Of a stretch of 64,000 bases of DNA, positions 567 to 59,529 are shown in pieces (position 1 is the stretch's first letter; each line of letters begins with the position of its first letter). The DNA lies in the NCBI RefSeq assembly GCF_003688895.1, contig NZ_REFV01000001.1:1-64000 (forward strand). Direction: 5' to 3'. The notes beneath the pieces are model-generated. The model saw only the letters and a list, made by a program, of their open reading frames with translations, did not search any database and was not told where the DNA came from. A program made the translations under genes and the position numbers. The DNA is from Dokdonia sinensis. GTDB taxonomy: Bacteria; Bacteroidota; Bacteroidia; Flavobacteriales; Flavobacteriaceae.

Positions 567-578
567 CTTTCGCGAAAG
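567..578. repeat. Palindrome CTTTCGCGAAAG (one arm shortened)
   Basis: This is a 12-bp perfect palindrome, extended on the right to GC but preceded by A instead of G. It is the first of 17 sites of the dispersed GCTTTCGCGAAAGC family in this window and is intergenic. Confidence 0.85.
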
Positions 579-641
579 CGAAAAATATTTTATTGTGCTA
601 AGATGGCGTAAAAGCTATATTTTCTAAATTTAATGCAATAA

Positions 642-671
642 AAAAGTGCACCCGACTAAAAGTGCACTTTT
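642..671. terminator. Bidirectional-type hairpin; best fit is terminator of a short leftward transcript
   Basis: AAAAGTGCAC (642-651) and GTGCACTTTT (662-671) form a perfect 10-bp stem. Read leftward it is followed by a T-run (TTTTTTATTG), so it looks like a terminator for something starting in 700-770. No annotated gene on the minus strand ends here. Confidence 0.55.
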
Positions 672-696
672 AAAAACAACCTAACCAATAAATCAT
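670..696 (-). other. Candidate 8-codon leader-like ORF directly before a hairpin
   Basis: On the minus strand ATG at 696 opens MIYWLGCF and stops at TAA 670-672, immediately upstream of the 642-671 hairpin. Such a short ORF can arise by chance. It is listed because the compact peptide-then-terminator layout resembles an attenuator or a small RNA and nothing else explains the hairpin. No downstream leftward gene is present, which argues against attenuation. Confidence 0.15.
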
Positions 697-911
697 TACG
701 CAGTTGCGCAACTCAATTATTACTTTATATATTATTTGATATTATCTTCTATTGATTAATATAAAGATACATTTGTTTAGGATATCATTAAAATAATTAA
801 ACAAAATATATCGTTAAAAATGTTTCAAATTAATTGAAATAGAGACCTTTTAGTTCTTAATGGAATGTTGAACTTGAATTAAGAATATGGATATTTCAAT
901 TTTTTTTAGCA

Positions 912-941
912 TTGTCACTTGGGCTATTAATCGTACTTTAG
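912..941 (+). promoter_or_regulatory. Probable promoter of the RelA/SpoT gene
   Basis: TTG at 912-914, a 19-nt spacer and TACTTTAG at 934-941 match the Bacteroidota pattern TTG-N17..23-TAnnTTTG, with one mismatch in the -7 box. The expected start is around 946, leaving only about 5 nt before the ATG at 951, so the message would be nearly leaderless. Confidence 0.5.
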
Positions 942-950
942 TTTCTACAA

Positions 951-3161
951 ATGGAGTTGACACAAGAATTTATAGAGGCAGAGAATAAAGAACTTACGAG
1001 GCAGTATAAAAAACTGTTGCGCATAAGTTACCAGGCGCTTACTAAAGATGACAAGGTTCTCATTAGGAAAGCGTTTGATATTGCTGTAGATGCCCATAAA
1101 GAGCAGAGAAGAAAATCTGGCGAAGCCTATATCTTTCATCCTCTCGCGGTGGCACAAATCGTAGCTTCAGAGATAGGTCTAGATGCTACCTCTATAGCTG
1201 CGGCACTTTTACACGATGTTGTAGAGGATACAGAGTATACGCTTAATGATATCGAGCAAATGTTTGGCGAGACAGTTGCGCGTATTGTTGATGGACTGAC
1301 AAAAATATCTAATTTAAAGAAGGATCGTGACGTTTCGCTTCAAGCGGAAAACTTTAGGAAGATGCTGCTTACCATTAATGACGACCCCCGTGTTATTATT
1401 ATCAAAATTGCAGACCGTCTTCATAATATGCAAACCATGGATGCGATGCGTCCAGACAAACAAGCCAAAATATCTAGTGAGACCTTATACATTTATGCTC
1501 CACTTGCCCATAGAATGGGTCTTTATAATATTAAAACAGAGCTCGAAGATCTAAGTCTAAAATATACGGAACCCGAGGTTTACAATGATATAAGAGGAAA
1601 AATAAAGGAGTCTAAAGCTGAGCAAGATCAGTACATTATTGACTTTAAAAAAGTTATAGAAGATTCTCTGGATACTGAAGGGTTAAACTATGAAATTAAA
1701 GGACGCCCTAAGTCTATTTACAGTATTCGTAAAAAGATTATGACTCAAGGCGTCACCTTTGAGGAGGTTTATGACAAGTTTGCCATAAGGATTATTTATA
1801 AAAGTGACCGAGCAAATGAAAAATTTCTTGCTTGGAAAATATATTCTATAGTAACGGATCACTTTAGACCAAACCCTACTCGTTTGCGTGACTGGATATC
1901 TTCTCCCAAGACTACAGGCTATGAGGCGCTTCACATTACAGTAATGGGATTGAAGGGCAGATGGGTAGAAGTTCAAATACGCTCTGATAGAATGAATGAA
2001 ATTGCCGAAAAGGGCTATGCTGCTCACTTTAAATATAAACAGGGAGACGATAAGGATAAAGGTCTAGACGAATGGATCAATAGACTGCAAGAAGCTCTCG
2101 AAAGTTCAGATCAAAGCGCTGTGGACTTTGTTGAGAATTTTAAACTTAACCTTTATAACAAAGAGATATTTGTATTTACACCTCAGGGTGAGCTCAAGTC
2201 TTTACCTAAAGGTGCTACGCCTCTAGACTTTGCTTTTAGTGTACATACAGAGGTTGGCATGCACACAAGAGGTGCACGAGTAAACGGTAAGCTGGTTCCG
2301 CTAAGCAACGAATTAAAAAGTGGGGATCAGGTAGATATTATCACATCAGACCAAGCAAAACCTACAAGTAACTGGCTCGATTATGCAACCACAGCGCGTG
2401 CACGTTCTAAGATAAAATCTTCTCTTAAAGATGAAAAGAAAGATATTGCGGCCGAGGGTAAAGTTGTGCTTTCGCGAAAGCTTAAATCTCAGAAAATAGC
2501 ACTCAACGAAAAGACAATTAATGAACTCGTTTCATACTTTAAATTGGGAACTAGTTTAGATCTTTTTTATCGAGTTGGTACCGGCGTAATAGATAATAAA
2601 ATGATTAAAGAGTTTGCTGCTCAACGTAGCAATGCGCTTATGTCTTTTATTAAGAGTAAGATTCGTAAGCCAACCATTCAAGAAAATATAGATAGGGATG
2701 AAATTACGGCAAAATATGACTCTCTTGTTTTTGGTAAGGAAGAACAAAAGCTTGATTATACTTTAGCAAAATGCTGTAATCCAATTCCTGGAGACTCTGT
2801 TTTCGGATTTACTACTATAAAGGAGGGGATTAAAGTGCACAAACACAATTGTCCTAATGCTATAGACATGCGTAGTAAATACGCTTACCGGATATTAACC
2901 GCAAAATGGATAGACTCTAGTGCCGAGGGATATAAAGTGGACATTGCTCTTACGGGGATAGACAATTTAGGGCTTGTGAGTCAAGTAACTGCCGAAATAT
3001 CTGGACACATGCACGTGGATATGCGTAATATCAACTTTTCTACAAATCACGGAGTTTTTAAAGGGCAAATAACAGTCGTGGTACAGAATCAAGGAGTGTT
3101 GAAAACTCTTATAGAAAACCTCAAAAAAATCAACGGAATAGATAAAGTCACTCGACTGTAA
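951..3161 (+). CDS. Bifunctional (p)ppGpp synthetase/hydrolase, RelA/SpoT family
   Basis: This long RSH enzyme makes and degrades the alarmone (p)ppGpp in the stringent response. The 736 residues fit the full-length family. The order is an HD hydrolase domain with HD at residues 88-89 (LLHDVVEDT) and DRLHNM; a synthetase domain with GRPKSIYSIRKKI, TGYEALHI and EVQIR; a TGS domain (IFVFTPQGELKSLPKGATPLDFAF); a cysteine-containing segment (KCCNPIPGD); and a C-terminal ACT domain. Both catalytic halves keep their signature motifs, so it is probably the bifunctional Rel type rather than a monofunctional RelA. Fur and purA follow at 29 and 18 nt and are probably cotranscribed. A copy of the dispersed palindrome lies in frame at 2468-2481, encoding LSRK. 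Confidence 0.95.
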   Translation: MELTQEFIEAENKELTRQYKKLLRISYQALTKDDKVLIRKAFDIAVDAHKEQRRKSGEAYIFHPLAVAQIVASEIGLDATSIAAALLHDVVEDTEYTLNDIEQMFGETVARIVDGLTKISNLKKDRDVSLQAENFRKMLLTINDDPRVIIIKIADRLHNMQTMDAMRPDKQAKISSETLYIYAPLAHRMGLYNIKTELEDLSLKYTEPEVYNDIRGKIKESKAEQDQYIIDFKKVIEDSLDTEGLNYEIKGRPKSIYSIRKKIMTQGVTFEEVYDKFAIRIIYKSDRANEKFLAWKIYSIVTDHFRPNPTRLRDWISSPKTTGYEALHITVMGLKGRWVEVQIRSDRMNEIAEKGYAAHFKYKQGDDKDKGLDEWINRLQEALESSDQSAVDFVENFKLNLYNKEIFVFTPQGELKSLPKGATPLDFAFSVHTEVGMHTRGARVNGKLVPLSNELKSGDQVDIITSDQAKPTSNWLDYATTARARSKIKSSLKDEKKDIAAEGKVVLSRKLKSQKIALNEKTINELVSYFKLGTSLDLFYRVGTGVIDNKMIKEFAAQRSNALMSFIKSKIRKPTIQENIDRDEITAKYDSLVFGKEEQKLDYTLAKCCNPIPGDSVFGFTTIKEGIKVHKHNCPNAIDMRSKYAYRILTAKWIDSSAEGYKVDIALTGIDNLGLVSQVTAEISGHMHVDMRNINFSTNHGVFKGQITVVVQNQGVLKTLIENLKKINGIDKVTRL
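2468..2481. repeat. Palindrome GCTTTCGCGAAAGC inside the relA/spoT gene
   Basis: This exact 14-mer is read in the frame that gives LSRK, in the linker after the TGS domain. It lies 1.9 kb from the previous copy. Confidence 0.95.
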
Positions 3162-3190
3162 TTCCGTAAATTCGCATCTTAATACCACCT

Positions 3191-3649
3191 ATGTCAGCCA
3201 GCGGCAACATCAATAAAGATCAAGAAGTCGTAAAAAATGTTTTTACGATGTATCTAGAGGAAAAAGGGCATCGTAAAACCCCTGAGCGATTTGCTATACT
3301 TCAGGAAATCTATAATAACGATGAACATTTTGATATTGAGTCTTTATATATTAATATGAAGAATAAAAACTATCGCGTAAGTAGAGCTACGCTGTACAAT
3401 ACGATAGAACTGTTGTTGGAATGTGGACTCGTGCGTAAACATCAGTTTGGGAACAACCAAGCGCAGTACGAGAAATCATATTTTGACAAACAGCATGACC
3501 ATGTAATTCTGACAGATACGGGAGAGGTCATAGAATTTTGTGATCCGCGCATTCAATCTATAAAGAAAACCATCGAAGAGGTATTTGATATTACGATAGA
3601 TAAGCATTCGCTTTATTTCTATGGTAAGAAAAATGAGGCTTCAAACTAA
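3191..3649 (+). CDS. Fur family transcriptional regulator
   Basis: This is a 152-residue metal- or peroxide-responsive DNA-binding regulator of the Fur/PerR family. The N-terminal winged helix shows [12 protein letters not shown] and [20 protein letters not shown], the recognition-helix region. The C-terminal dimerisation domain starts with the metal-binding HDH of [21 protein letters not shown]. The first CxxC zinc pair of E. coli-type Fur is replaced by LTDT, so the structural zinc site is absent, which I believe is usual in Bacteroidota Fur. The metal specificity (Fe, Mn or peroxide sensing) cannot be read from sequence alone. It sits between the alarmone enzyme and purA in one probable operon. 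Confidence 0.92.
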
Positions 3650-3667
3650 CCATACAATTATAACGCA

Positions 3668-4942: not shown

Positions 4943-5012
4943 GGGGGAAAGTAGAAAAACGAAAGTAGAGATTAGATTGTCTATTTAGGCTTTGCCAAAA
5001 ATCAAAATTCAA

Positions 5013-5045
5013 AACCGTTCAGAATTATTGCTGAGCGGTTTTTTT
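5013..5045. terminator. Shared terminator between convergent purA and the phosphodiesterase gene
   Basis: AACCGTTCAG (5013-5022) pairs with CTGAGCGGTT (5031-5040), followed rightward by a T-run. The stop codon of the leftward gene (5025-5027) lies in the loop. Read leftward the stem is followed by TTTTGAATTTT, so it can serve both directions. Confidence 0.8.
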
Positions 5046-6167: not shown

Positions 6168-6171
6168 ATTA

Positions 6172-6675: not shown

Positions 6676-6695
6676 TACGCTTTCGCGAAAGCGTA
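6676..6695. repeat. Palindrome family, 20-bp perfect copy
   Basis: GCTTTCGCGAAAGC at 6679-6692 is extended symmetrically by TAC and GTA. It lies 5 nt beyond the murA stop codon, in the 67-bp gap before the next gene. Confidence 0.95.
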
Positions 6696-8685: not shown

Positions 8686-9004
8686 TTGTAAATAATTAAG
8701 TGAAGTCGTCTACCTTAGTAAACAGTTGCAAAATACTAAAAATTGTGTAACTGTGGAGTAAATATTGAGATTTGACAAAAGATTGGGAAAAGGGCTGGTT
8801 TTCGCTTTTGCGAAAGGGAGACTTCGGACTTGAACTTGAAATCGAATTTGAACTTGAATTCGATTTCAAAATCTAAAAAAATGGATTCGTGCCGGTTTCG
8901 CGACAGATAGCAATACAATTAAAAAAAATAAAACGATTGAAGAAACGGCAACTTCCACCTTCCACTTTACAACTGCTACTGCTACTGAAAACTGCCACTA
9001 AAAA
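8686..9004. other. Intergenic stretch of 319 bp, repeat-rich, no gene
   Basis: It contains a degenerate palindrome copy near 8803 (CGCTTTTGCGAAAG), a hexamer-like repeat block with internal inverted repeat (8831-8867) and an ACTGCT-rich segment near 8970. A leftward ORF of 60 codons here (EFKFKFDFKFK) is an artefact of the repeat block. Confidence 0.6.
8831..8867. repeat. Repeat block of TTGAACTTGAA units with internal inverted repeat
   Basis: TTGAACTTGAA-type units recur twice. GAAATCGAA (8838-8846) is inverted as TTCGATTTC (8859-8867). The block could fold but has no T-tail. It resembles the simple-sequence arrays found elsewhere in the window. Confidence 0.6.
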
Positions 9005-9749: not shown

Positions 9750-9765
9750 CGCTTTCGCGAAAGCG
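9750..9765. repeat. Palindrome family, 16-bp copy
   Basis: An exact CGCTTTCGCGAAAGCG copy lies in the divergent gap between the SDR gene and the phytase-like gene. It falls about 30 nt upstream of the leftward start codon, so it could overlap that promoter. Confidence 0.95.
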
Positions 9766-13374: not shown

Positions 13375-13378
13375 GTTG

Positions 13379-13400
13379 TTACGCTTTCGCGAAAGCGTAA
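13379..13400. repeat. Palindrome family, 22-bp perfect copy
   Basis: The 14-mer core is extended symmetrically by four bases on each side (TTAC/GTAA). It begins 5 nt after the mnmE stop codon, ahead of the terminator 13459-13502. Confidence 0.95.
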
Positions 13401-18502: not shown

Positions 18503-19828
18503 CTAGAAGACAAATTTATACCCCCCCATAAAACCAAATGTATTTTCTGTACTGTTATTAAAATCGGCTCCAGCAGCTACAGAAAAGACTCCAAAGTTTG
18601 TGGTGTAAAGACCCTTTGCATAAGTGAAGACTTTATTGATACCTTCAGGAATCGGATTTCCTGGCGCACCAAAATCTTGAACATAACTTCCCTTAAGATT
18701 GACCGTGATAGTATCAAATGTAAAGGAACCTCCAAGATGGTGAGCTTTAATCCTGTTATTACTGATACCTAAACCCGTTTCCGGGTTCAACAATATAAAG
18801 GGAATACCTATAGTCCGTCCATCATACGTCCAACCGCTACGGTATACTTTATTACTAAAATAGTTATCGCCCGCGCTTACACTAGGTTGATCTGCGCTAC
18901 TTTGATCTGTAGTGTGTACGAATTCGTAGAGAATTCTTGTTAAAACTCCTACTTTAGGAGCATAAGTAAGGCCCCATACCCCATCTGGAAAATTTTTAAA
19001 TGCTGTTCCTGATCCATCTTCAAAAAGGTGCTGATGGTAAGCTTCTAGTGCGCCACTTACTCCTTTATACTCGTATTCAAAATTATAGGAGCCCAGGTGA
19101 TTACCAAGGGCGTTTTGTTGGTCCCCTTCCGGAGCATCTGCATCTGCATTTTGAGCTAGAAAAATCTTTATAAAATCTGAAAATCCAGCTGGTAGTTTTC
19201 CTGCAATCGGACTAGTGCCACCCCATTGTGCATAATGTTGTAATGTACCTTTGAAAGTACTCTTTTCATTTACAGCAATATGTAAGCCTAGGCGCTTATA
19301 GTGCACCATTGTATTCCCGACGTAGCGATCATCATTGAGAAAATAATTGCCCAGTCCGTAGTCTACAGCAATCGTTTTTGAAAGCTTAATGGGCTCGGGA
19401 GCCTCCACTACAATTCCCGGGATTGCTCTTGCATTTCCAGACCATAATATGTTTCCGTTTGTGGTGGAGAGACCATCGTAGCGCTCTTTCTGTTGCTGGC
19501 TTCCTAACGTGGCAACAAGCCATTTGTTAGTAAAAGAGGCGTAAAGTTCGGCACGTTGCAGGCGGTCTGTCACTCCATCACGATACATCGCTCCCACGCC
19601 TATTTCTAGATGTGAAGAGGAAGATGTTGGGTATTCCGCTTTCGCGAAAGCGTACACATCCCCATTTGTTAACCCATCACGAAGTCCGTTTGTATTTGCC
19701 GTAAACCAGAAAGGAAGTTGCTCACTAGCGTAGGCGCCGTCAAAGCCTGCATTTCCAGAAAATTCGACTTCTTGAGCACTTGCGGTGATAGCGACGCAAC
19801 AGCAAAAAAGTAAGAGTATATTTTTCAA
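18503..19828 (-). CDS. Capsule assembly Wzi family outer-membrane protein
   Basis: A signal peptide (MKNILLLFCCCVAITASAQ) leads a 441-residue protein ending in a C-terminal Phe (GGYKFVF), typical of an outer-membrane beta-barrel. Sequence marks of the Wzi-like family include LPFWFTANTNGL, LQRAELYASFTNKWLVATLG and LHHLGG-type strands (KAHHLGGSFTFDTI). Wzi-type proteins anchor or organise capsule at the surface. It sits at the edge of the polysaccharide locus, divergent from the CpsB-like phosphatase. The palindrome copy at 19637-19652 encodes AFAKA near the mature N-terminus. Confidence 0.85.
   Translation of the reverse strand: MKNILLLFCCCVAITASAQEVEFSGNAGFDGAYASEQLPFWFTANTNGLRDGLTNGDVYAFAKAEYPTSSSSHLEIGVGAMYRDGVTDRLQRAELYASFTNKWLVATLGSQQQKERYDGLSTTNGNILWSGNARAIPGIVVEAPEPIKLSKTIAVDYGLGNYFLNDDRYVGNTMVHYKRLGLHIAVNEKSTFKGTLQHYAQWGGTSPIAGKLPAGFSDFIKIFLAQNADADAPEGDQQNALGNHLGSYNFEYEYKGVSGALEAYHQHLFEDGSGTAFKNFPDGVWGLTYAPKVGVLTRILYEFVHTTDQSSADQPSVSAGDNYFSNKVYRSGWTYDGRTIGIPFILLNPETGLGISNNRIKAHHLGGSFTFDTITVNLKGSYVQDFGAPGNPIPEGINKVFTYAKGLYTTNFGVFSVAAGADFNNSTENTFGFMGGYKFVF
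19637..19652. repeat. Palindrome family copy inside the wzi-like gene
   Basis: An exact CGCTTTCGCGAAAGCG copy is read by the leftward gene in the AFAKA frame. Confidence 0.95.
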
Positions 19829-23863: not shown

Positions 23864-25825
23864 CTAGTTGATTGATAATTTCTTATCTAATGCTTCAAAA
23901 ATGGAGTTATTACTTTTAAAATTAGGAACGAGTTCTTTCAGTTCAGAAACTACGGTTTCCTTTGATTCAGATATAGAGCAGGCAATCATTCTATTAATAG
24001 ATGCACTAACTATCTCAAAGTCTTGGGTCTCGTCTTTAGAAATCATAATCTTATGATGATGCGTAGGGATAACGCGGCTACCATCGTTAAGTAATTCTTC
24101 ATACAGTTTCTCACCAGGTCGCAAGCCCGTGTACTCTATCCTGATATCAACCCCAGGAGTATGTCCTGCAAGCTGTATCATTCTTGTGGCGAGGTCTTTA
24201 ATTTTCACAGGATCTCCCATATCAAATACAAAAATCTCTCCTCCCGCGCCCATTACTCCTGCTTCCAGTACGAGCTGACACGCTTCAGGGATAGTCATAA
24301 AGTATCTAATGATATCTGGATGTGTAATTGTTATCGGTCCACCTTGTTCAATCTGTTTTTTGAAAAGCGGTACAACAGACCCATTAGACCCAAGCACATT
24401 ACCAAATCTTGTCGTTATAAATTTAGTTTTAATGGTGTCCGCTTTCGCGAAAAACAACGATTGCACGTACAACTCGGCAACGCGTTTTGAGGCTCCCATA
24501 ACATTTGTGGGATTTACAGCCTTGTCTGTCGATACCATTACAAAATAAGGCACCTTGTGAGCCACTGCAAGATCTGCAATGTTGCGTGTTCCCATTATAT
24601 TTGTGAGTATCGCTTCGTGGGGATTATCTTCTACTATGGGCACGTGCTTGTAGGCGGCCGCGTGATATATATAATCGATATCAAACGTTTCAAAAAGCAT
24701 TTTGAGACGCTCTTTATTCCGTACATCGCATAAAAAATATTCGAATGGAACGTCTAGGAAATTGACCGAAAGTTCCAAGCTCAAATTATGTAATGGCGTT
24801 TCGGCTTGGTCTAGGACGATGATCTGTTTAGGCTCATAAGAAGCAACTTGTCGTACAATCTCACTTCCTATGGAACCTGCCCCACCCGTCACAAGTATTG
24901 TTTTCCCTGTAAGTGCATTTCTTTTATTAGCATCATTCAGCCTTATAGGATTACGATTAAGGAGATCTTCAATCTGAAAGCGTTTAATTTTTTTTGTAAT
25001 AGATTCCCCTTCCGACAAATCTTGAAGTGGCGGTATGGAAAACACCTTGATATCGTGATTTAAACAGTCCTCAACGATAGCGTATTGTTCTTCAAAGGAC
25101 AAATAATCGGCTGTAAAAATGACGGCCTCGGCGTTTGCATTTTGAATTTTAGAGATAAACTTATCACTGTAATGAACCACAGGTTTGTCCAGAACCCGTA
25201 ACCGTTTATTTGCAGTCTTTTTAGAAAGGAACCCCACAACTTCAAAGCGTTTAGGATGCTCCAAATCCATAGCCGAAGCTGTTGAAATTGCATTCTCATT
25301 AAGTCCAAGTATGAATGCCTTCATACTCTTTACTCCAGAAGACGCAGCTTTAAAATATTCATAAACCCTCTTCACAAAAAGCCTGAAAACGTATAACAAC
25401 GTAAAGGATACAAAAGTATTCAGTACCAGCCCAATGGTTAGAAAAATTTTCTCCCCTACGATTGCATTGAACATATAGTTCCCTATGATCAAAAAGCCAA
25501 AGGTGAAACCAGTAGCCATCATAAGCTTAAAAGCATCTACCGTGGAAGAGTGGCGTATTAAACCCGCATAGGTTTTAAATACTAAAAAGAAAACAAGGTG
25601 TGTTACTAGAATCGTACTAATGCGCTGTGTCGCCGAAAAGTAGGGATAGAAGCTTGAAGTAAGCTCCTTTATGATCACATACGTAATGAATATAGACACA
25701 AGAACGAGTGTCAAATCTATAACAAGAACTAGCCAGCGAGGTAAATATCTAAACTTCCTGATATCGAGCTCATTGCTAGTGTAGGAAAAAAGCTTTGTAA
25801 ATATGTTATTTATTCTTGATGGCAC
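23864..25825 (-). CDS. Membrane-bound UDP-sugar 4,6-dehydratase, PglF/WbpM/CapD family
   Basis: The 653 residues comprise four N-terminal membrane helices (within residues 30-150), a linker domain and a C-terminal SDR domain with TGGAGSIGSEI and TDKAVNPTNVMGASKR (Ser/Met/Lys-type catalytic triad of the large subfamily). It converts UDP-GlcNAc to the 4-keto-6-deoxy sugar. Aminotransferase, acetyltransferase, phosphoglycosyltransferase and GT4 genes follow in the order upstream-to-downstream expected for a bacillosamine pathway. The start codon is GTG at 25825; no internal ATG lies before the helices. A degenerate palindrome at 24441 encodes FAKAD. Confidence 0.92.
   Translation of the reverse strand: MPSRINNIFTKLFSYTSNELDIRKFRYLPRWLVLVIDLTLVLVSIFITYVIIKELTSSFYPYFSATQRISTILVTHLVFFLVFKTYAGLIRHSSTVDAFKLMMATGFTFGFLIIGNYMFNAIVGEKIFLTIGLVLNTFVSFTLLYVFRLFVKRVYEYFKAASSGVKSMKAFILGLNENAISTASAMDLEHPKRFEVVGFLSKKTANKRLRVLDKPVVHYSDKFISKIQNANAEAVIFTADYLSFEEQYAIVEDCLNHDIKVFSIPPLQDLSEGESITKKIKRFQIEDLLNRNPIRLNDANKRNALTGKTILVTGGAGSIGSEIVRQVASYEPKQIIVLDQAETPLHNLSLELSVNFLDVPFEYFLCDVRNKERLKMLFETFDIDYIYHAAAYKHVPIVEDNPHEAILTNIMGTRNIADLAVAHKVPYFVMVSTDKAVNPTNVMGASKRVAELYVQSLFFAKADTIKTKFITTRFGNVLGSNGSVVPLFKKQIEQGGPITITHPDIIRYFMTIPEACQLVLEAGVMGAGGEIFVFDMGDPVKIKDLATRMIQLAGHTPGVDIRIEYTGLRPGEKLYEELLNDGSRVIPTHHHKIMISKDETQDFEIVSASINRMIACSISESKETVVSELKELVPNFKSNNSIFEALDKKLSIN
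24441..24453. repeat. Degenerate palindrome copy GCTTTCGCGAAAA
   Basis: One arm lacks the terminal GC. It lies in the coding frame of the dehydratase as FAKAD, and its position (4.8 kb and 4.1 kb from its neighbours) fits the general spacing. Confidence 0.7.
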
Positions 25826-32045: not shown

Positions 32046-33315
32046 ATTGATGGGTTTGACTAATTCTAGAATATTTCTCGAGCCCTGAAATATTTAATGG
32101 TTCGTTCAACTCGTGATCCCTATATTTCTTAAAAATACTTTCAATAATGCGACAACTCTTTTCGTCAGAAGTATCTGTCGTATCAATCCACCATCCGCAA
32201 TTGATCTTATCAATTATCTCATTAGAATGTGCTAATGAATTTGAGTGACTAAGGATGGGTCTTCGAGCTCCTAAATATTCAAAAAACTTTAGTGGGACAC
32301 TATTCTGGAACTCTTTGCTATCTACCTCTATCATCCACAATACATGTGATGCGCCTGCACGTTCTAATACCCGCTTTCGCGAAAGCGCACCTAAAAAATT
32401 TATGTTTTTAAATGATTTAAATTGAGTCAATTCGTCGATATTTTGAGTCTCAAAATTACCAGCAATTTCTATTTGAAATTCGTCAGATTTAATTAATTTC
32501 CTTGATAAGAGCGTGTCTAAAGATCTCAAGAAATGTTTTGGATCCCTTCTACCTCCATAAAAAGAACCTGCATAAAAAAATGTTAGTTTCTTACTCTCTG
32601 AAATAGAATCAATACGATCATAATCCGCCTGATCAAATCCATTATAGATTACAGCACATTTATTGCTTATATCAGGATAAGAAGACACGTAGATATCTCT
32701 CATCCGATTTGTAATAAAAGTTAAAAAATTAGCTCTATTTAAAATTTGTCGCTCTAAAAAATGATGTAAGCGTGACGTTTTCTCTTTCTGTCTGCTATCA
32801 TTTACTGTCCAATGGAAGTCTCTAAAATCAACAATATGTTTAGGACTAGAAGTAGCTCTCAAAAATAATCTAGCTATCAAATGATTAGAAAAAAGAGGAG
32901 ATGTAGAAAATACAATATCTGGTGCAAGTATATTCCTGTTGCTCCTAGCATATTTTAACATATTCCAATACCAAAAAACCCCTTTATCTGGAAAAACAAA
33001 AGGAACTAACACATTGAAAAGGCGCATTTTTAGTGACCCCTTTTTTTCGCTCATTGTTTTGTCAACCATTGAGCTTTTTTTAATCTTTCGAAATTTTGAC
33101 AAATCAATAGCATTAATTTTTATCACCTGAACCTTATCCAAACCCTTACTTTCAAATGTCGATAACCCTAAAGAAGCATCCTGATTACCGCAAGTAATTA
33201 CCGTAACCTCGTATTTATCTTTATCTAAATACTTAGCAATTGTATATGGCCTCTGAGCTGCAGGAGCATTAGAAGGAGGGAATGAGTAGGATATGATGAG
33301 AACTTTTTTTTTCAA
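32020..33315 (-). CDS. Glycosyltransferase, family 4-like
   Basis: This 431-residue GT-B protein has the N-terminal glycosyl_trans_4-like start MKKKVLIISYSFPPSNAPAA followed by RPYTIAKYL. It has a membrane-surface basic region and the C-terminal half with FFYAGSFYGGRRDPKHFLRSL and PLKFFEYLGARRPIL. The acceptor and donor are unknown. A palindrome copy (32372-32387) is read as LSRKR in the linker before the sugar-nucleotide-binding half. Confidence 0.85.
   Translation of the reverse strand: MKKKVLIISYSFPPSNAPAAQRPYTIAKYLDKDKYEVTVITCGNQDASLGLSTFESKGLDKVQVIKINAIDLSKFRKIKKSSMVDKTMSEKKGSLKMRLFNVLVPFVFPDKGVFWYWNMLKYARSNRNILAPDIVFSTSPLFSNHLIARLFLRATSSPKHIVDFRDFHWTVNDSRQKEKTSRLHHFLERQILNRANFLTFITNRMRDIYVSSYPDISNKCAVIYNGFDQADYDRIDSISESKKLTFFYAGSFYGGRRDPKHFLRSLDTLLSRKLIKSDEFQIEIAGNFETQNIDELTQFKSFKNINFLGALSRKRVLERAGASHVLWMIEVDSKEFQNSVPLKFFEYLGARRPILSHSNSLAHSNEIIDKINCGWWIDTTDTSDEKSCRIIESIFKKYRDHELNEPLNISGLEKYSRISQTHQFEEYFDKA
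32372..32387. repeat. Palindrome family copy inside a glycosyltransferase gene
   Basis: An exact CGCTTTCGCGAAAGCG copy is read in the LSRK frame (GALSRKRVL). Confidence 0.95.
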
Positions 33316-36176: not shown

Positions 36177-37517
36177 TTAATTCTGCTTTCGCGAAAGCAT
36201 ACTCATAATAAAATTAACTGCAGGTCGCCATTCTTTTTTTGTAATTACAAAATAATTACGCAACGGCAATTTATCAATCATCATGACTGACACAAAGATA
36301 AAAAGCGTGCTAACAGTAAATGAAATTAATACCGCTAAGGCAGCACCCTCTATTCCATAATTCGGAATTAAAAACAAACCAAAAGGTATCAAAATTAGAA
36401 TAGCGACTATATTAGACCAAAATGATACTCGTTGTAAATCCCTCGCGATATTATACATGATAAAGATCCCTTTAAAAGAAAAAATAACCATACTAAAAAG
36501 GATGATTTTAAAAGGAGTAACAACGGATACAAAAGCCTCTCCGTAAATAAATGGAACCAGCCAATCTGCCATAAAAAAAAGTGCTATTGAAATCATTAAA
36601 GTTACAGATACTGTGATACGGGAGAAAAAAAGTAAAATTTCCATGCGCTCTTCACGATTTTTTGCACTAGATAAATATGGCAACAATACCGTACGCAAAG
36701 CCCCTGGAATCTGAGCAACCATTTCAGACAGTCCTAAGGCAATAGCATAAAACCCCACCTGCTCGATAGACAAGAAATTATCCACTAGCCAAATATCGAT
36801 GCGTAGACTTAAGAAATTTAAAATTGCAGTAAGGAAACCTATTCCAGAAAAAAGTAACAACGGTCTCAACTCTAACCACGTAATTTTAAAATCAATACGC
36901 CATGAATATTTAGTCTTGAAAAATCGAAGTATAGAAAGTGTGATAAAAATTATTGTTACTATATGAAGACAAAACAGAACAAACTCAGATATGTAATTAT
37001 CGTAATAATGCGACCAAAAAAACAATCCACCAAAAAGAAAGAGCCTTAAAAAAGAGTAATATAGCGTAGATTTATATAAATCTTCAAAACTCTTGGATCC
37101 TCTCAAGAAGGCACTCAACACCTCTTTGATTTCGTTTATTACTAACAAAATTGCGAGTAATATTACATTTGTCTTCAAGTTTTCTAAAGGTAATAATAGA
37201 TCAAGATAACCTAAAAAATAAAGGACGGTCAAGACTGTGAGAGAGGACAGCAAGCTTATTCCAATTACAATAAAAGCCACTCCCAATAGCTTCTCCGTAG
37301 GTAACTTCTCTTTTGCAATAAAATGGATAAGACTCAAATTAATATTGAAAGTAGTCAATATCATGAAAAATCCTACGGCTATCTCGATTAGGGTTAATAC
37401 TCCCTTACCATCTGGACCTAAAAGTCGTATAAAAAAAATACTAGAAACAAAACCTAACAAAAGTGCGATGATTTTTGTTCCTACAACAAGAAAGGAATCT
37501 TTGAGCAATCTACTCAT
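36177..37517 (-). CDS. Polysaccharide/oligosaccharide flippase (Wzx-like)
   Basis: This 446-residue polytopic membrane protein has 12-14 predicted helices and a MATE-like/MOP N-terminus (IIALLLGFVSSIFFIRLLGPDGKGVLTLIE). It should flip lipid-linked repeat units across the inner membrane. It begins with a 4-nt ATGA overlap with the cysQ-like gene. Its C-terminus ends SMLSRKQN, where the palindrome copy at 36184-36199 supplies LSRK right before the stop codon. Confidence 0.9.
   Translation of the reverse strand: MSRLLKDSFLVVGTKIIALLLGFVSSIFFIRLLGPDGKGVLTLIEIAVGFFMILTTFNINLSLIHFIAKEKLPTEKLLGVAFIVIGISLLSSLTVLTVLYFLGYLDLLLPLENLKTNVILLAILLVINEIKEVLSAFLRGSKSFEDLYKSTLYYSFLRLFLFGGLFFWSHYYDNYISEFVLFCLHIVTIIFITLSILRFFKTKYSWRIDFKITWLELRPLLLFSGIGFLTAILNFLSLRIDIWLVDNFLSIEQVGFYAIALGLSEMVAQIPGALRTVLLPYLSSAKNREERMEILLFFSRITVSVTLMISIALFFMADWLVPFIYGEAFVSVVTPFKIILFSMVIFSFKGIFIMYNIARDLQRVSFWSNIVAILILIPFGLFLIPNYGIEGAALAVLISFTVSTLFIFVSVMMIDKLPLRNYFVITKKEWRPAVNFIMSMLSRKQN
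36184..36199. repeat. Palindrome family copy at the 3' end of the flippase gene
   Basis: A TGCTTTCGCGAAAGCA copy encodes the last residues LSRK of the flippase. Confidence 0.95.
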
Positions 37518-39654: not shown

Positions 39655-39670
39655 CGCTTTCGCGAAAGCG
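39655..39670. repeat. Palindrome family copy between the tviC-like and tviB-like genes
   Basis: An exact CGCTTTCGCGAAAGCG copy lies in the 55-bp gap, 19 nt after the stop of the epimerase gene. Confidence 0.95.
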
Positions 39671-41382: not shown

Positions 41383-42257
41383 TGCGCTACATCCCCATTC
41401 TAAGTTTCCTATTGGTCGCGCTACAGGTTCAATGTCAAGATGAGACAAACTATGGAAAGCTCACCTACGTGAGTACGCTCCCAGAACTCCTACGGGAGAA
41501 CTCTGGGATGGAAACTATAGAAAATAGTGACTTGACGTATATTATAAACGACTCCAAGGGTGCCTCGAGCGTCTTTGGAGTTCGTGCGTCTACGGGTAAA
41601 ATTGTTCAAGAGATTGATATTAAGAACTATGGTAACCGCGATTGGGAAGATCTAACCAGCAGGGGCAACGATCTTTTTATTGGGGACTTTGGCAATAATG
41701 GGAACCTGCGCAAGAATCTAGTCATCTATTGGATCTCAAATGTAGATGAAATGGATAAGGAAAAGGTTTCCGCTTTCGCGAAAGCGATACCATTCACATT
41801 AGAAGATCAGAAGAAATTTCCGCCAAAAAAGAAAGATCGCAACTACGACATCGAAGCCTTTTTTGTAAAGGGTGACCATCTGTATCTCTTTACCAGAAAT
41901 CGCTCTTCAGATTTTGACGGCACTACAAATTGCTACAAACTCCCCATCGCCGAAGGCGCTCAAGTTGCCAAAAAAATAGGAAGCTTTAAAACCTGCGATG
42001 ATAGCTCAGACTGTCAAGTCACCAGCGCAGATTATGATCCAAAATCGGGAAAAATGGTGCTACTCACTTACGATAAGGTTTTTCTCTTTTCAGATTTTGA
42101 AGAGGACGACTTTTTTAATGGAAAATCAGATAAGATTAAGTTGGATTATGCTTCACAAAAAGAATCTGTTTATTTCAAAAATGCAAAAACGCTTATCATA
42201 GGTGAAGAATCTAGAAAAGGCGCTGGAGGAAATATCTACAGCCTCAAAATAGATTAA
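41382..42257 (+). CDS. Exported protein of unknown function, beta-propeller-like
   Basis: The 291 residues have a signal peptide (MRYIPILSFLLVALQVQCQ). The mature part has repeated short beta-like segments (LTYIINDSKGASSVFGV, NRDWEDLTSRGNDLFIGDFGNNG, YDIEAFFVKGDHLYLFTRNR) that resemble a six-bladed propeller of the kind found in esterase-like/phytase or SdiA-regulated families. I cannot name a function. Start-stop overlap with dps suggests a joint stress response. A palindrome copy encodes AFAKAI (41771-41786). Confidence 0.65.
   Translation: MRYIPILSFLLVALQVQCQDETNYGKLTYVSTLPELLRENSGMETIENSDLTYIINDSKGASSVFGVRASTGKIVQEIDIKNYGNRDWEDLTSRGNDLFIGDFGNNGNLRKNLVIYWISNVDEMDKEKVSAFAKAIPFTLEDQKKFPPKKKDRNYDIEAFFVKGDHLYLFTRNRSSDFDGTTNCYKLPIAEGAQVAKKIGSFKTCDDSSDCQVTSADYDPKSGKMVLLTYDKVFLFSDFEEDDFFNGKSDKIKLDYASQKESVYFKNAKTLIIGEESRKGAGGNIYSLKID
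41771..41786. repeat. Palindrome family copy in the propeller-like gene
   Basis: An exact CGCTTTCGCGAAAGCG copy is in frame as AFAKA. Confidence 0.95.
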
Positions 42258-45812: not shown

Positions 45813-45834
45813 GTACGCTTTCGCGAAAGCGTAC
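45813..45834. repeat. Palindrome family, 22-bp perfect copy after the coiled-coil gene
   Basis: The 14-mer core is extended symmetrically by GTAC on each side, 16 nt after the stop codon. It is one of the two longest copies in the window. Confidence 0.95.
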
Positions 45835-49033: not shown

Positions 49034-49047
49034 GCTTTCGCGAAAGC
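49034..49047. repeat. Palindrome family copy in the gap after the AAA gene
   Basis: An exact GCTTTCGCGAAAGC copy lies in the 184-bp gap before the next gene, between a heptamer array and a second-family palindrome. Confidence 0.95.
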
Positions 49048-49135: not shown

Positions 49136-50410
49136 ATGAATATGGAAAAACTAAAAGCAGCAGGATTATACGGAGGAGCGCTCGTAACACTTACGGGAGC
49201 ACTTGCGAGACGCTATAACGAGTGTCTTGCGATGCTGGGTGTTGCCCCTACAAAACTGGAGCGCTTTTCCATAGATGCGATGGGCTGGAGTCCAGAAATT
49301 GCAGCCGAAAAACAAGAAGATTTCTACTTAAACAGTGGTGAGGCAAATACGAATGCCATCATTATCTCACCAGCACAGCGGGATAAGCCAGTGCATATGC
49401 CCAGTCATAGTTTTGACCGTGACCTGATGGAGGCGGTTTTTACCGCTTTCGCAAAAGCAATCAAAGACATCACAAAAGACAGCGCCCTTTGTGTTCACAT
49501 AGATCAGAAAATTGATACGTTTTTTGAGCCTTTTGACTTGTTACGATATGACAAGATCACAGTCAGTTTTGAAGTACTCAATAAGTTGGATATTGTACAG
49601 CAAGAGCAGAATAATCTTATTACCACGCTTACAACAGGCAATAATTTTATAGATCGAGATATACACAGACAACTGCTGGAAAGCGCTAAAAACTATGGCG
49701 ACTTGCGCAACCGAAAGTTATCCATAGACCCGATGACCTTAGAGGTAAAATCGTTTTACACGAGAGCCTTTGGCGGTGTGTTTGTCCTGCGCGATTTTAT
49801 TAAAGATATTTTGATTTTTGAGGATAAAGCCGTTTTTGAAAAAGCAATTCAAGATACAGGGCACGATGTGTTACTTTTTCATATCTCGCACGATGAAATG
49901 TTGAGCACGCTGGTGAGTCATCTCGTTCTTGAAAACGATATGAAGAAGGCCTCAAAAAGCAGTCGCTATGACAGAATAAAAAAACATCGCTTTATGCAGT
50001 CAGTAACAGAAACAGAGCATCCTTTAAGCGAGATTCTAGACAGTCATTTTCTATTTAAAAAATACCTTTCTGGATTAGACATCAATGCTCAGAAACAACT
50101 GAATGGTGTTGAGACGTATTTCCAAAAAGTCATTATTAACAAAGAATTGAAACAAAAAGACTTTATAGACGACCTATACTACAAAGCATTACATATACCA
50201 CATTCCGCAATGGAGGACGAGCTAAAATCGCTGGTTTGGAAGTTGCTCGTAAAGATTGCTCCCGTAGACCCTGTTCACTTATTTTGGTATGACAAGACGA
50301 CATTTTACAAGCTATACGAGGGTTGGGATGAGTCTTATAAAGAATGGGTAATTGCTCAGATTCTTGAAGAGAATAGGAAGAGCGTTAAGAGTTTAGAGTT
50401 CAGAGTTTAG
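49136..50410 (+). CDS. Unknown cytosolic protein, fourth gene of the AAA locus, 3' end in a repeat array
   Basis: No family is recognised. The 424 residues start at ATG 49136 (MNMEKLKAAGLYGG); ATG 49142 is equally possible, while the TTG at 49127 lies in a palindrome. The region 215-235 (TRAFGGVFVLRDFIKDILIFED) and the C-terminal helices (SLVWKLLVKIAPVDPVHLFWYDK) look well folded. No transmembrane segment or catalytic motif is seen. The last residues (KSVKSLEFRV) are encoded by the heptamer array 50390-50480, so the array has run into the gene and provides its stop codon. A degenerate palindrome at 49444 encodes AFAKAI. Confidence 0.65.
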   Translation: MNMEKLKAAGLYGGALVTLTGALARRYNECLAMLGVAPTKLERFSIDAMGWSPEIAAEKQEDFYLNSGEANTNAIIISPAQRDKPVHMPSHSFDRDLMEAVFTAFAKAIKDITKDSALCVHIDQKIDTFFEPFDLLRYDKITVSFEVLNKLDIVQQEQNNLITTLTTGNNFIDRDIHRQLLESAKNYGDLRNRKLSIDPMTLEVKSFYTRAFGGVFVLRDFIKDILIFEDKAVFEKAIQDTGHDVLLFHISHDEMLSTLVSHLVLENDMKKASKSSRYDRIKKHRFMQSVTETEHPLSEILDSHFLFKKYLSGLDINAQKQLNGVETYFQKVIINKELKQKDFIDDLYYKALHIPHSAMEDELKSLVWKLLVKIAPVDPVHLFWYDKTTFYKLYEGWDESYKEWVIAQILEENRKSVKSLEFRV

Positions 50411-52852: not shown

Positions 52853-53773
52853 GTGCTGTTCCTAAAAATCATACGACTTCCCAATCTCGTGATGATGGCT
52901 CTTTTACAGGGTGTCGTTCAGTTTGGGGTGCTTCCCTATTTTTCAGAGGCAAGGCAATTATCTTCAGCCGAATTTGTGCTTCTCGTTCTGGCGACGGTTT
53001 GTATTGCAGCAGGCGGTTACATACTAAATGATTACTGCGATGTAAGAACCGATTTAGTCAATAAACCAGGACGGGCTATTGTGGGAAGTACGCTTTCGCG
53101 AAAGCGAACTCTACATCTCTATCTTATCACCACAGGGCTGGGACTATTTTTAGGAGCTCTATTATGCCTAGTAGCACAAAAGTGGGTGCTATTCTTGTTA
53201 TTTGTAGCGATTGTCGCGATGTTAAATTTTTACTCAAAAAGCCTGAAGGGTGTTGCCGTTTTAGGTAATCTTCTGGTGAGTTGGCTCGTTGCGCTTACCC
53301 TAATCACGATAGCGCTTTTTGCAATACCATTTGCTCACTTAGAGCCAAAAGTTATATCGCAAAGTGATTTTGCCCGCGTGATCTGGTACTTTATCGTCTT
53401 TGCGATGGTACTTACATTCCTACGGGAAGTCGTAAAGGACCTTGAGGATATAAAAGGTGACTATGCATCTGGACATAAAACATTGCCCATTGTTTTTGGC
53501 ATTGAGAGAACCGCAAGGTTTGCATCGGTGTTTGGGATGGCTTGTTTATTTCTCATCGCTTTGTTTACTTTTACCGCAATTACAAATCATATCCTACAAG
53601 GAGCCCTTATTATGGGCACCGTTGCACCTTTAGGATATGTGGCGTCACAACTTTGGGAGGCTAGGAAGCCAGAACAATTTGGCCGATTGTCCACCATACT
53701 TAAGATCGTAATGCTTGTAGGTGTACTTCTTATACCATTCATCGCTCAATATATTGCACATGCTCAAGGATAA
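52853..53773 (+). CDS. UbiA-family prenyltransferase, geranylgeranylglycerol-phosphate geranylgeranyltransferase-like
   Basis: This 306-residue polytopic membrane enzyme attaches a prenyl chain to a small acceptor. Two Asp-rich motifs bind the Mg-diphosphate: NDYCDVRTD (residues 59-67) and DLEDIKGDYASGHKTLPI. The N-terminus (KIIRLPNLVMMALLQGVVQF) matches the Bacteroidota group usually annotated as geranylgeranylglycerol-phosphate geranylgeranyltransferase. The start is GTG at 52853. The maf gene overlaps its 3' end by 14 nt. A palindrome copy encodes LSRKR in a cytosolic loop (53091-53106). Confidence 0.88.
   Translation: MLFLKIIRLPNLVMMALLQGVVQFGVLPYFSEARQLSSAEFVLLVLATVCIAAGGYILNDYCDVRTDLVNKPGRAIVGSTLSRKRTLHLYLITTGLGLFLGALLCLVAQKWVLFLLFVAIVAMLNFYSKSLKGVAVLGNLLVSWLVALTLITIALFAIPFAHLEPKVISQSDFARVIWYFIVFAMVLTFLREVVKDLEDIKGDYASGHKTLPIVFGIERTARFASVFGMACLFLIALFTFTAITNHILQGALIMGTVAPLGYVASQLWEARKPEQFGRLSTILKIVMLVGVLLIPFIAQYIAHAQG
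53091..53106. repeat. Palindrome family copy inside the ubiA gene
   Basis: An exact CGCTTTCGCGAAAGCG copy is read as LSRKR at residues 81-85. Confidence 0.95.
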
Positions 53774-54402: not shown

Positions 54403-54418
54403 CGCTTTCGCGAAAGCG
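54403..54418. repeat. Palindrome family copy between maf and the M14 peptidase gene
   Basis: An exact CGCTTTCGCGAAAGCG copy lies 55 nt after the maf stop codon. Confidence 0.95.
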
Positions 54419-54507: not shown

Positions 54508-54536
54508 TTATACACAAATAATCGTGTTTTACTTGT

Positions 54537-54564: not shown

Positions 54565-54619
54565 GTTACCCAAATTATTGAAAGTCATCCTCAAGAGAGC
54601 TTTCAAAACTTACCTAAAT

Positions 54620-57600: not shown

Positions 57601-59464
57601 GCGCGTAGTGATGAAATTTCAAGGTGGTACTAATAATACGGCAGCCCCTGCTTCTTGTGGAACATACAATTTTGGAGAAACAGAAGATTATACTGTAAAC
57701 ATTGTAGAAGGACCTACATGCGAAATGACAACAATCTATAATGGGAGCTGGAATAATGGTTTTCCCGATAGTGCAAAGGAAGCTATTATAAATTCAAGCC
57801 TTACACTTAATACGTTAGATTTAGAATCCTGCTCACTTACTATAGAAGCTGGTGCAACCTTAACTATAAATGCTGGCCACTATGCCCGTATTCAAGGGGA
57901 TATTGTTGTAAATGGTACATTAATTATCGCACACGAAGGAAGCTTAGTCCAAGTAGATAATAATGCTAACGTAACTAAAAACGCTGGAGGAGTGATAGAA
58001 GTTCACAAGACTTCTCTGGATATGAAACCCCGTGATTTTATGTTTATGAGTAGCCCTATGACCGCCGAAACGCGCGATGGCGTATTTGGCAATGTTATCG
58101 ATGCGGCAACAAGCACCCTTGATCAAGCCTTTAGAGTTATTTATCTAAACCCTGAGAATTTTCAAGCAGATCCTGTAGTAACAGGTTACGGACCCTATGC
58201 TGGTGCAGAAACTTTTTTAAGTGTTGACAACACCTTTTTAGGTAATCACAATGCTAGTGAAGCAATCATTCCTGGAGAAGGATACATTATTTATCCTCAA
58301 GATTCTTATCTAGCAAATGGAATTACAACGACCTACGATTTTAACTTCAATAAAGGAACACTTAATAATGGGATTGTAAATTACCCTATTCAATATAACG
58401 GAACTACCATAGATAACTTCAATCTTATAGGTAATCCATATGCTAGCGCTATAGATATCAATAAACTTATTGCGGCAAATCCTATGATTAACGAAGTTTA
58501 CTTCTGGGAACATGTGACTACTCCTAACAATAGCCTCCCAGGTTATTTAGGAGAGAATCCATCGATGCAAGATTTTTCTATGCGCAACCTTACTACAGGT
58601 ATGCCTGCCGTAAATAATCCAGGAAGTACGCCTAGTCAGTTTATTGCATCTGGACAGGGGTTTGCCATAAAAGCAGACCAAGCCTACTCCACCACAGATC
58701 CTGTTGTAACGTTTACAAATGAGATGCGTAGTACAGGAAACAATGACCAGTTTAAGAATACCGCCGAAGAAAAAGATTTGATATGGCTCAAAATATCTAA
58801 TGAATTATTTGAGCTTGAAAGTAAAACAGCAATAGGCTTTTTACCTCAAGCGACAGAAAAACTTGATAAAGGATATGATAGTAAGCGTCTAGGTACTCCC
58901 CTTTCCATATTCTCTTTACTGAAAGATGGAACACAGCTGGGTATTCAGGGTTTAGGAGAATTTGACAACACTAAGGTGATCCCAATAGGCTTTGCCACAG
59001 CGATTGAACAGGTAACTACATATAGTATATCGCTAGATGATATAACAGGACCCTCGTTACAAAATACCGAAGTATATCTAATAGACACCACGTTTGAAAC
59101 GTATACAAACCTTAGAGAAAAACCTCACGTGTTTACGGCAACAACCGCTAATGACGGAAATCGATTTTACCTAGCATTCAATAAGAATGAAACACTAGGT
59201 ATTAATCAGGAATCTGTACTCTCTGATAGTATTGCCATTTACCCAAATCCAGTCAAAGAACGTTTTACAATATCTTATGATGGCAGAAGCATCCTTTTGA
59301 AGGCTATAGTAACCGATGTTCAAGGGAAGATGATTCAAGAATTTGACCTATCAAACTTTAAGTCTCTTAAATCTTTTGATTTAGCTAACTACGCTACAGG
59401 AATCTATTTTGTGCAAATTCAGTCATCCGCAGGGGTGGTTGTAAAACGTATTCTAAAACAATAA
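54620..59464 (+). CDS. T9SS type A secreted M14 zinc carboxypeptidase with FnIII and GEVED domains
   Basis: The protein has 1614 residues, starting at ATG 54620 (MKKITLLTALICALSVFSQD, a signal peptide); the longer frame to 54524 crosses the promoter. The M14 peptidase domain shows the zinc motif HAREVS (His225, Glu228), RGVDLNRNFDYFFG (about 307-320), the third zinc His in the NHSFANGIPHPYGG region and TPEHGGTGFWP with the catalytic Glu (about 442). A fibronectin type III domain (about 782-875), GEVED (about 875-1030), the module shared with the protein at 13516-18306 (about 1035-1540) and a type A sorting domain (IYPNPVKERFTISYDG to VVKRILKQ) follow. It probably degrades peptides at the cell surface. 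Confidence 0.93.
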   Translation: MKKITLLTALICALSVFSQDSPQRISISNIDQSKATLLTDAGIDLRCGAQINEGNLILELGPNELNTLKDLNVDYKVEIEDLFDFYKEQTDRYLPIAKRELELSKRATKATKTSTGSVILDSFLQTEGTQEVDWVTPTNFKLGASMMGCLTISEVESEMNLMHSFFPNLISAKMDAGAPSNTKTYGNTLGTATWGPQTVYYSRMTSDQDSDEGTKPQILITSMIHAREVSALMSNMFFMWYLLENYATDPAIKHLLDNNEIYFIPVVNPDGLLWNETIAPSGGGFQRKNLRVNSGDSGTININNNDRGVDLNRNFDYFFGSAGSGSSGVPSADSYRGPNAFSEPESRILRDFVLSRNFETGLMNHSFANGIPHPYGGNPTFTSGREDEMHKMHEDMTKYNRYVSGATIFSAANGIADDWMLGGNIDGNGSVGSGQNILATTPEHGGTGFWPNPTDITPIAKTGMRIYLTAVYYGGKYARLHDLTQSDIATITADLDFGIERVGLAGSNFSIELSPVSSNIVSMTSPTTQSLTMLEQKNVSGTVTLDPSIQPNDIIEYNVKLRNEDNVVIYDVNIKKYFQPSVIFADDVDANGLSNWTVTGDWSTTNQKPYAGSPSGNTSIRSTATIPYVNNGNGVLTTSTSYSLTDVSEAVVQFYTKWDLERNFDFVEIQGSTNGTSWTPLTGKYNKPEAQSNTNDAHGGKIGLHGFQSGASSGLVYDGDQMDKWVMEEIEISAAKNSFLLGSPTAFFRFRFRSDANQRPESYSTTYEGFSIDDFKIIGPQVPCALSVPTNISVSNLATVSATISWDAIPSASFDLRYRESGTPSWTTIVDITTPTYDLTGLSQSTQYEVQVRTKCDTDVSDYSTLVNFTTPAPGAYCTSNGNNSSEEYISNVSLGTIDNPSTLNESSSGYTDYTSITPADITLNSTPTISVEKSFVGGPFTDAVSVWIDYNQDGDFDDPGEQVIEDPSSTNSLVNVAFSNPVPADALIGNTRMRVVMKFQGGTNNTAAPASCGTYNFGETEDYTVNIVEGPTCEMTTIYNGSWNNGFPDSAKEAIINSSLTLNTLDLESCSLTIEAGATLTINAGHYARIQGDIVVNGTLIIAHEGSLVQVDNNANVTKNAGGVIEVHKTSLDMKPRDFMFMSSPMTAETRDGVFGNVIDAATSTLDQAFRVIYLNPENFQADPVVTGYGPYAGAETFLSVDNTFLGNHNASEAIIPGEGYIIYPQDSYLANGITTTYDFNFNKGTLNNGIVNYPIQYNGTTIDNFNLIGNPYASAIDINKLIAANPMINEVYFWEHVTTPNNSLPGYLGENPSMQDFSMRNLTTGMPAVNNPGSTPSQFIASGQGFAIKADQAYSTTDPVVTFTNEMRSTGNNDQFKNTAEEKDLIWLKISNELFELESKTAIGFLPQATEKLDKGYDSKRLGTPLSIFSLLKDGTQLGIQGLGEFDNTKVIPIGFATAIEQVTTYSISLDDITGPSLQNTEVYLIDTTFETYTNLREKPHVFTATTANDGNRFYLAFNKNETLGINQESVLSDSIAIYPNPVKERFTISYDGRSILLKAIVTDVQGKMIQEFDLSNFKSLKSFDLANYATGIYFVQIQSSAGVVVKRILKQ

Positions 59465-59486
59465 TTATTCAAAAATTAATAAGGAG

Positions 59487-59515
59487 CATCTAAAGAAATT
59501 TAGATGTTTTTTTTT
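59487..59515 (+). terminator. Terminator of the M14 peptidase gene
   Basis: CATCTAAA (59487-59494) and TTTAGATG (59499-59506) form an 8-bp stem with a GAAA tetraloop, followed by a run of nine T. It lies 22 nt after the stop codon. Confidence 0.9.
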
Positions 59516-59529
59516 GCTTTCGCGAAAGC
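59516..59529. repeat. Palindrome family copy directly after a terminator
   Basis: An exact GCTTTCGCGAAAGC copy begins at the end of the terminator T-run. It is the last copy in the window; none is seen in the following 4.5 kb. Confidence 0.95.

Follow-up and report, generated by a model that had tools for sequence, protein, structure and literature searches.

What is a palindrome that recurs, nearly letter-perfect, through genes and the gaps between them? The question is raised by the first 64,000 nucleotides of contig NZ_REFV01000001.1 of Dokdonia sinensis (assembly GCF_003688895.1), which we refer to as the window. In this stretch the 14-mer GCTTTCGCGAAAGC has 15 exact copies, as the original prediction from the window had counted, and a further four copies differ from it at one or two positions (Table 1), where chance would supply 0.16 matches even at up to two mismatches. 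Both of the near-exact copies that had been claimed at 567 and 24441 exist, although the first starts at 566, and the 17 copies so defined are spaced as had been calculated, with intervals averaging 3684 bp and a standard deviation of 1227 bp (coefficient of variation (CV) 0.33, versus 0.94 for random placement). We consider the site to be a candidate self-mark for DNA import, similar to an uptake sequence, and hold this view at about even confidence. Such a role is favoured by three properties: the short-range repulsion between copies, their exactness, and their restriction to one clade. We found no earlier description of a palindromic mark in Dokdonia in the open-licence literature; the 14-mer was not found in open-licence papers, and no open-licence paper on a highly iterated palindrome in Bacteroidetes was present among the matches listed.

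Extent, abundance and range of the site

The 3.647-Mb genome to which the window belongs (39.4% G+C in a 464-kb sample, G000) contains 857 exact copies of GCTTTCGCGAAAGC, approximately one per 4.3 kb, and none of a control in which the pattern is reversed, so that the over-representation in the window extends genome-wide. Exact copies outnumber copies with one mismatch by 108 to 21 in this sample and by 107 to 8 in that of a second genome, G060 (864 kb sampled overall). The wider consensus is TTTACGCTTTCGCGAAAGCGTAAA, which is followed on each side by about 20–25 bp that are poor in G on the outward strand. Near the core this strand has approximately 5% G, and intergenic and coding copies are alike in this respect (376 sites). 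The total extent of the site, a palindromic core of 14–16 bp with G-poor flanks of about 20 bp, is approximately 55–60 bp. The 3' flank is rich in A and C, with no T-run after the core, and the strand that leads into the core is G/T-rich. Perfect symmetry over 22 bp, which had been attributed to some copies, is found at exactly that length in 18 of 215 sampled sites (for one in the window, see Table 1), and symmetry reaches further in three. Pairing between mirrored flank positions is not above the compositional prediction in these 215 sites. The arms are therefore without covariation, and the site reads as the duplex target of a symmetric binder rather than as a folded strand. Together with the symmetric wide consensus and the conserved core, this is consistent with the duplex-binding dimer that was originally proposed, as far as sequence patterns can indicate. 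The flanks also have a weak period-3/6 texture, on which we do not rely.

All 18 Dokdonia genomes searched, including that of the window, carry the site, with 369 to 905 copies per genome, the two lowest counts belonging to incomplete assemblies. Within the family, a 12-base core is present in hundreds of copies in only four of 298 genomes and three of 203 genera (g1, g11 and g169), and the remaining genomes have at most 21 (control, 0–3). A class-wide scan matched the 14-mer in 13 of 247 genomes, and the 12 besides the window's own have one to four copies each. Among 80 named Bacteroidota loci of about 3–21 kb, the 14-mer occurs only in an uncultured Nonlabens locus (L177), five times in 21 kb, and Nonlabens is a bearer, possibly one of the two related bearer genera. 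Samples of 20–40 kb from 15 non-bearing genera contain no comparable iterated palindrome; one of these samples (G111) has a single copy of the 14-mer. The G fraction of the outward strand is 0.04 and 0.06 in g11, 0.075 at the Nonlabens locus (five sites) and 0.17 in g169. The last value comes from a genome (G185; 120 kb sampled) that has 445 copies of the 12-mer yet a weak flank bias; the system may be decaying here or be at another stage.

In some low-count genomes (G012, G021, G054 and mostly G051) the few copies are clustered, which is the pattern expected of imported islands; those of G042 are scattered. Clustered regions include G012:C18:74148-174392 and G021:C1:729029-757694. Two low-count regions (L053 and L057) have a common Fur-like reading frame, identified by eye, across a copy of the site, which suggests a mobile element from a bearer host.

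Placement, spacing and turnover of the copies

Copies occur in both coding and intergenic DNA, as had been stated from the window, but placement is not indifferent to genes. Intergenic DNA makes up 11.5% of the G000 sample and 14% of the G060 sample (based on our own simple gene caller; the G060 sample includes 5 kb of N), but it accounts for 48 of the 108 copies in the former and 70 of the 107 in the latter, with the other 60 and 37 inside genes. For G060, the median distance between copies and gene 3' ends is 31 bp. Its 46 copies in co-directional gaps are distributed as 17, 11, 11, 6 and 1 over successive fifths from the upstream stop, and the 33 such copies of G000 (8, 11, 5, 5 and 4) have a weaker preference for the stop side. 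Copies inside genes prefer one reading frame (54 of 97), which encodes Ala-Phe-Ala-Lys-Ala.

The spacing is characterised by short-range exclusion. Pairs of copies less than 1 kb apart number 6 where 53 are expected, a 9-fold deficit; a mild excess is found at 3–4 kb (72 versus 53), and there is no clear order beyond this distance. In the wider samples the CV is 0.64 and 0.73, compared to approximately 0.99 for random placement. The quasi-regular spacing that had been predicted is thus correct to the extent that copies are more evenly placed than at random, but it amounts to an exclusion zone below 1 kb and not to a lattice. When 596 other 7-mers of comparable abundance were examined in the G000 sample, not one had so few close pairs. 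With a dispersion index of 0.48 over 46 sampled bins, counts per 20 kb along the G060 chromosome vary less than under random placement. A dependence on replication position, proposed earlier as a check, is not seen: over the 46 20-kb bins (28% of the complete chromosome), density neither rises nor falls with distance from a parS-like pair (Spearman 0.005). The spacing is neither that of a lattice nor that of a polar, replication-linked signal. One stretch of 20 kb, G060:C1:300001-320000, has only a single copy and a strongly negative GC skew (−0.19). Another word, TCACCATCACAATC, is repeated 28 times in the first 400 kb of G060 and may mark a giant repetitive gene.

The main rival to a role in import is a role in chromosome organisation, in which an intracellular dimeric nucleoid protein would use its approximately 900 sites to loop, anchor or condense the chromosome, and sites less than 1 kb apart would be redundant or sterically unfavourable. 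Such a protein would suit a symmetric duplex site of 55–60 bp without covarying arms, the even cover of the sampled chromosome and the strong conservation of the core, and could also explain why phage contigs (described below) have sites. However, order does not extend beyond the exclusion zone, and the chromosomal trend is absent. A protein of the Noc/ParB type is disfavoured in particular. The Noc-binding sites (NBS) and parS resemble the Dokdonia site in being palindromic duplex sites for a dimer, but the Dokdonia site has far more copies, and no bias toward ori or ter was seen. ParB (PF02195) has one match per genome in all six bearers examined, and the sampled G060 DNA contains two separate parS-like sequences with two mismatches each (none in 464 kb of G000); a Noc paralogue is rejected on the basis of the single ParB and the separate parS-like pair. 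We regard chromosome organisation as an unlikely explanation, though one of real weight.

Copies are retained between genomes to a much greater degree than random 14-mers. At 94.6% identity, two Dokdonia genomes retain 32 of 32 and 32 of 33 sites (random, 56–57%); the values are 26 of 26 and 26 of 27 at 94.3% identity (random, 52–53%), and 22 or 23 of 24–27 at 89% (random, 28–30%). At approximately 77% identity, where 4–6% of random 14-mers are retained, 6 or 7 of 8–10 sites are kept when G060 or G075 is the query; with query and target exchanged, none of the 6 or 7 aligned sites is lost. The core has one change in 462 bases, versus a background of 5.1% in coding and 7.5% in intergenic DNA, and the overall change in the flanks is approximately at the background rate. 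Sites that differ between species do so mostly by one or two substitutions, and a few alignments are gapped. For the copy in the RelA gene of the window, 20 loci were searched, one of them itself a bearer; 16 have a homologue that spans the copy, and all 16 align across it without gaps. For in-gene copies of the G000 sample, 22 sites with an alignable homologue gave 80 alignments, 17 of which are gapped within a few residues. Eight of the gapped cases are among the 45 alignments at ≥60% identity, and seven of these eight keep the site peptide or most of it. One homologue (61% identity) lacks the site peptide across a 6-residue gap, and an insertion or deletion is possible there. In a comparison of syntenic positions between G060 and PRO95, mapping succeeded for only 10 of 33 sites, of which six are at the same place. 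On the 3' side of the 6701–8014 gene of the window, an exact or degenerate copy is present in 11 or more of the 17 congener loci (L064–L080, with L079 and L080 unclear). The offsets, as estimated from match starts, take several different values, which suggests that a copy is maintained locally although its position shifts.

These comparisons bear on whether the palindrome might act at the RNA level, as an intrinsic terminator or mRNA 3' hairpin, or might be a dispersed mobile palindrome such as a repetitive extragenic palindrome (REP) or a miniature inverted-repeat transposable element (MITE). The enrichment soon after stops, with the 31-bp median distance from gene 3' ends, would agree with elements of this kind, and the 6-residue gap is where one might have been inserted or lost. 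On the other hand, the A/C-rich 3' flank has no T-run, the arms do not covary beyond composition, a large share of the copies is inside genes, and the turnover is mostly substitutional, with the RelA copy free of gaps. We therefore reject the terminator, the hairpin and the mobile repeat, which we find scarcely credible; the earlier statement that these are not REP elements appears to be right, judging from the alignments.

The flanks differ from background in the type of change. Differences between A and G on the outward strand number 19, compared to approximately 72 expected, and those between C and T are near background (81 sites, from the three closest pairs pooled, with sites of more than two core mismatches dropped); mutation and selection are not fully separated by this test. 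Cytosine deamination is disfavoured as the cause of the flank bias, because it predicts normal numbers of A/G differences.

A proposed mark for DNA import and its alternatives

If the site serves import, each 55–60-bp duplex would be recognised by a single sequence-specific machine with two-fold symmetry, which Dokdonia would have in common with its nearest relatives. A receptor would capture the fragments that bear the site, ComEC would import one strand, and recombination of the RecA type would copy the site back into chromosomes, which could account for both its spread and its upkeep. A short fragment that already has one site would gain nothing from another, and this would give rise to the exclusion zone; exclusion without longer order is what is expected if one site per fragment of approximately 1–3 kb suffices. 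More tentatively, we propose that this is a palindromic uptake sequence in Bacteroidota, with strand-polar flanks, that had a single origin in the common ancestor of Dokdonia and two related genera.

The closest counterparts are the DNA uptake sequences (DUS) of Neisseriaceae and the uptake signal sequences (USS) of Pasteurellaceae. Like the Dokdonia site, these are clade-specific and evenly spaced, have hundreds to thousands of near-exact copies in intergenic and permissive coding positions, and have a core that is conserved far above its surroundings and flanks that matter. They differ in being polar 9–12-mers at about one per 1 kb, whereas the Dokdonia core is a palindrome of 14–16 bp at about one per 4 kb, in another phylum. 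PMC2397512 reports 97% versus 85% identity for DUS/USS, permissive locations, and a spacing tied to conversion tracts, and PMC7811141 describes a core with flanking tracts. A preference of Riemerella columbina for its own DNA, which is reported in PMC7965970, indicates that self-preference exists in the broad group to which Dokdonia belongs.

The import protein ComEC (PF03772) is present in all six bearers that were tested. A tree of ComEC from 20 genomes groups the six bearers together (support 83/87; present in 89% of bootstrap trees). Their neighbours are the two g75 genomes, which carry the 12-mer 19 and 21 times, and G110, which carries it 7 times. In two of the three bearer genera, long branches lead to ComEC of G230/G010 and of G185 (L394, L399, L406), at 1.8 and 1.65 changes per column compared to a median end branch of 0.64; the non-bearer G179 also has one (1.79).

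Viral contigs provide further support. Sites on contigs with several copies have the flank bias (outward G 0.09; 27 sites), and those that are alone on their contig, and presumably there by chance, do not (0.27; 54 sites); this comparison covers loci L121–L135 and L270–L343 among the matches listed, sorted by hand into the two groups. Multi-copy contigs with the flank bias of the chromosomal sites support a role in uptake, and would have come from a bearer host. One of them, L132, encodes head, portal and tape-measure proteins of siphovirus type (PHROGs), and its copies 4.5 kb apart resemble the USS load of phage HP1, which has 17 USS cores in 31 kb. In L128, L129, L130 and L132 (IMGVR_UViG_3300039191_000376) the palindromes are exactly 4480 bp apart.

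Several observations weigh against import. ComEC is also present in 15 of 16 non-bearers, and hence does not explain the restriction to one clade. G185, which represents the third genus, has only a weak flank bias. In the flanks, C-to-G and T-to-G differences (10 and 11) are near background and not visibly suppressed, so that simple selection against G is not the whole explanation. Strain-specific unaligned DNA, from which uptake sequences should be depleted, has two sites versus 2.8 expected, in only 11 kb. No import assay or receptor is known, and the literature matches listed on transformation name neither Dokdonia nor Nonlabens. Finally, uptake sequences known so far lack the palindromic symmetry of the Dokdonia site (PMC1939737).

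Two other systems with genome-wide motifs were considered. In a Chi-like scheme of self-protection, a nuclease of the RecBCD/AddAB type would stop degrading at the site and start recombination, the palindrome would work in both directions, and the G/T-rich 5' flank would help RecA loading. The G/T-rich strand leading into the core is indeed present, the density of the site is close to that of E. coli Chi, GCTGGTGG, at one per 3.4 kb (250 kb), and the isolated Nonlabens phage P12024S has no copy in 33 of its 35.7 kb. However, known Chi sites are short and polar, and a symmetric core of 14–16 bp is too specific for this function. In addition, Chi is randomly spaced in the same E. coli sequence (CV 1.03; 17 pairs below 1 kb versus 18.5 expected), whereas Dokdonia copies repel each other. 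We consider a Chi-like role improbable.

The second system is HIP1 of cyanobacteria, to which the palindrome had been likened. Both are highly iterated palindromes in coding and intergenic DNA, but the Dokdonia core is GCTTTCGCGAAAGC and not the HIP1 core, GCGATCGC, and it is longer, with constrained flanks and a strong short-range repulsion. HIP1 is tied to methyltransferases (PMC4390886), and by analogy the Dokdonia site could be a methylation target maintained by an orphan DNA methyltransferase. Constraint extending into the flanks is unexpected for such a target. Among nine bearers, PF00145 is absent from five, PF01555 is above the cut-off in only two, and PF02086 is found in three, in one of them weakly; G065 and G230 match none of these. 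The three methyltransferase families, which were the only ones searched, are thus not common to the nine bearers, and a HIP1-like role through methylation is very improbable.

The import role, if true, would imply a symmetric receptor for double-stranded DNA, or an import complex, of a kind not yet described, and an uptake sequence outside Neisseriaceae and Pasteurellaceae, the two families for which the papers cited here describe them. Genome-wide short motifs are few (uptake sequences, Chi and HIP1), and each has led to a machine. Dokdonia and its relatives, with several complete genomes and isolated strains, would be a third lineage in which to study the origin of self-DNA preference or of chromosome marking, and the wide symmetric footprint makes the site a good bait for its protein. 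The site is also relevant to gene exchange among marine flavobacteria.

Copies in the window and other iterated words

Table 1. Copies of the palindrome in the 64-kb window, with their setting or the basis of the assignment.
Copy	Position	Setting or basis
Near-exact, 1 mismatch, left end	566..579	Motif scan
Exact	2468..2481	Inside RelA/SpoT gene 951–3161; homologues gap-free across the copy
Exact	6679..6692	Intergenic; 8 bp beyond the stop of EPSP_synthase-family gene 6701–8014 (minus strand)
Degenerate, 2 mismatches	8804..8817	Motif scan
Exact	9751..9764	Intergenic; divergent genes on either side
Exact	13383..13396	Intergenic; convergent genes on either side
Exact	19638..19651	Inside ORF 18503–19828 (minus strand), whose TTG start is uncertain; may fall upstream of the true start
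Half-degenerate, 2 mismatches at right end	24441..24454	Motif scan
Exact	28565..28578	In gene
Exact	32373..32386	In gene
Exact	36185..36198	Extreme C-terminal end of ORF 36177–37517 (minus strand)
Exact	39656..39669	55-bp intergenic gap
Exact	41772..41785	In gene
Exact	45817..45830	Intergenic; 20 bp beyond stop codon; 22-bp perfect palindrome 45813–45834
Exact	49034..49047	Intergenic
Degenerate, 1 mismatch	49445..49458	Motif scan
Exact	53092..53105	In gene
Exact	54404..54417	Intergenic
Exact	59516..59529	Intergenic; directly 3' of the T-run of a terminator-like hairpin (by eye)

Other iterated words were seen in relatives. A different 14-bp palindrome, GTAAAACGTTTTAC, occurs twice in 20 kb of L142 (G149), at approximately 4 and 7993, and could be due to chance or be another iterated site. 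Among the 80 named Bacteroidota loci, L204 and L205 have an iterated 10-mer palindrome; in L205 (uncultured Bacteroides) the palindrome CCTACGTAGG occurs six times in 17.8 kb and is possibly another iterated palindrome. Within 20 kb each, AACGGTTAAGGC has 14 copies in L149 (G110) and CCTTTGTCAC has 20 copies in L144 (G056), and these words presumably reflect repeat proteins or arrays.

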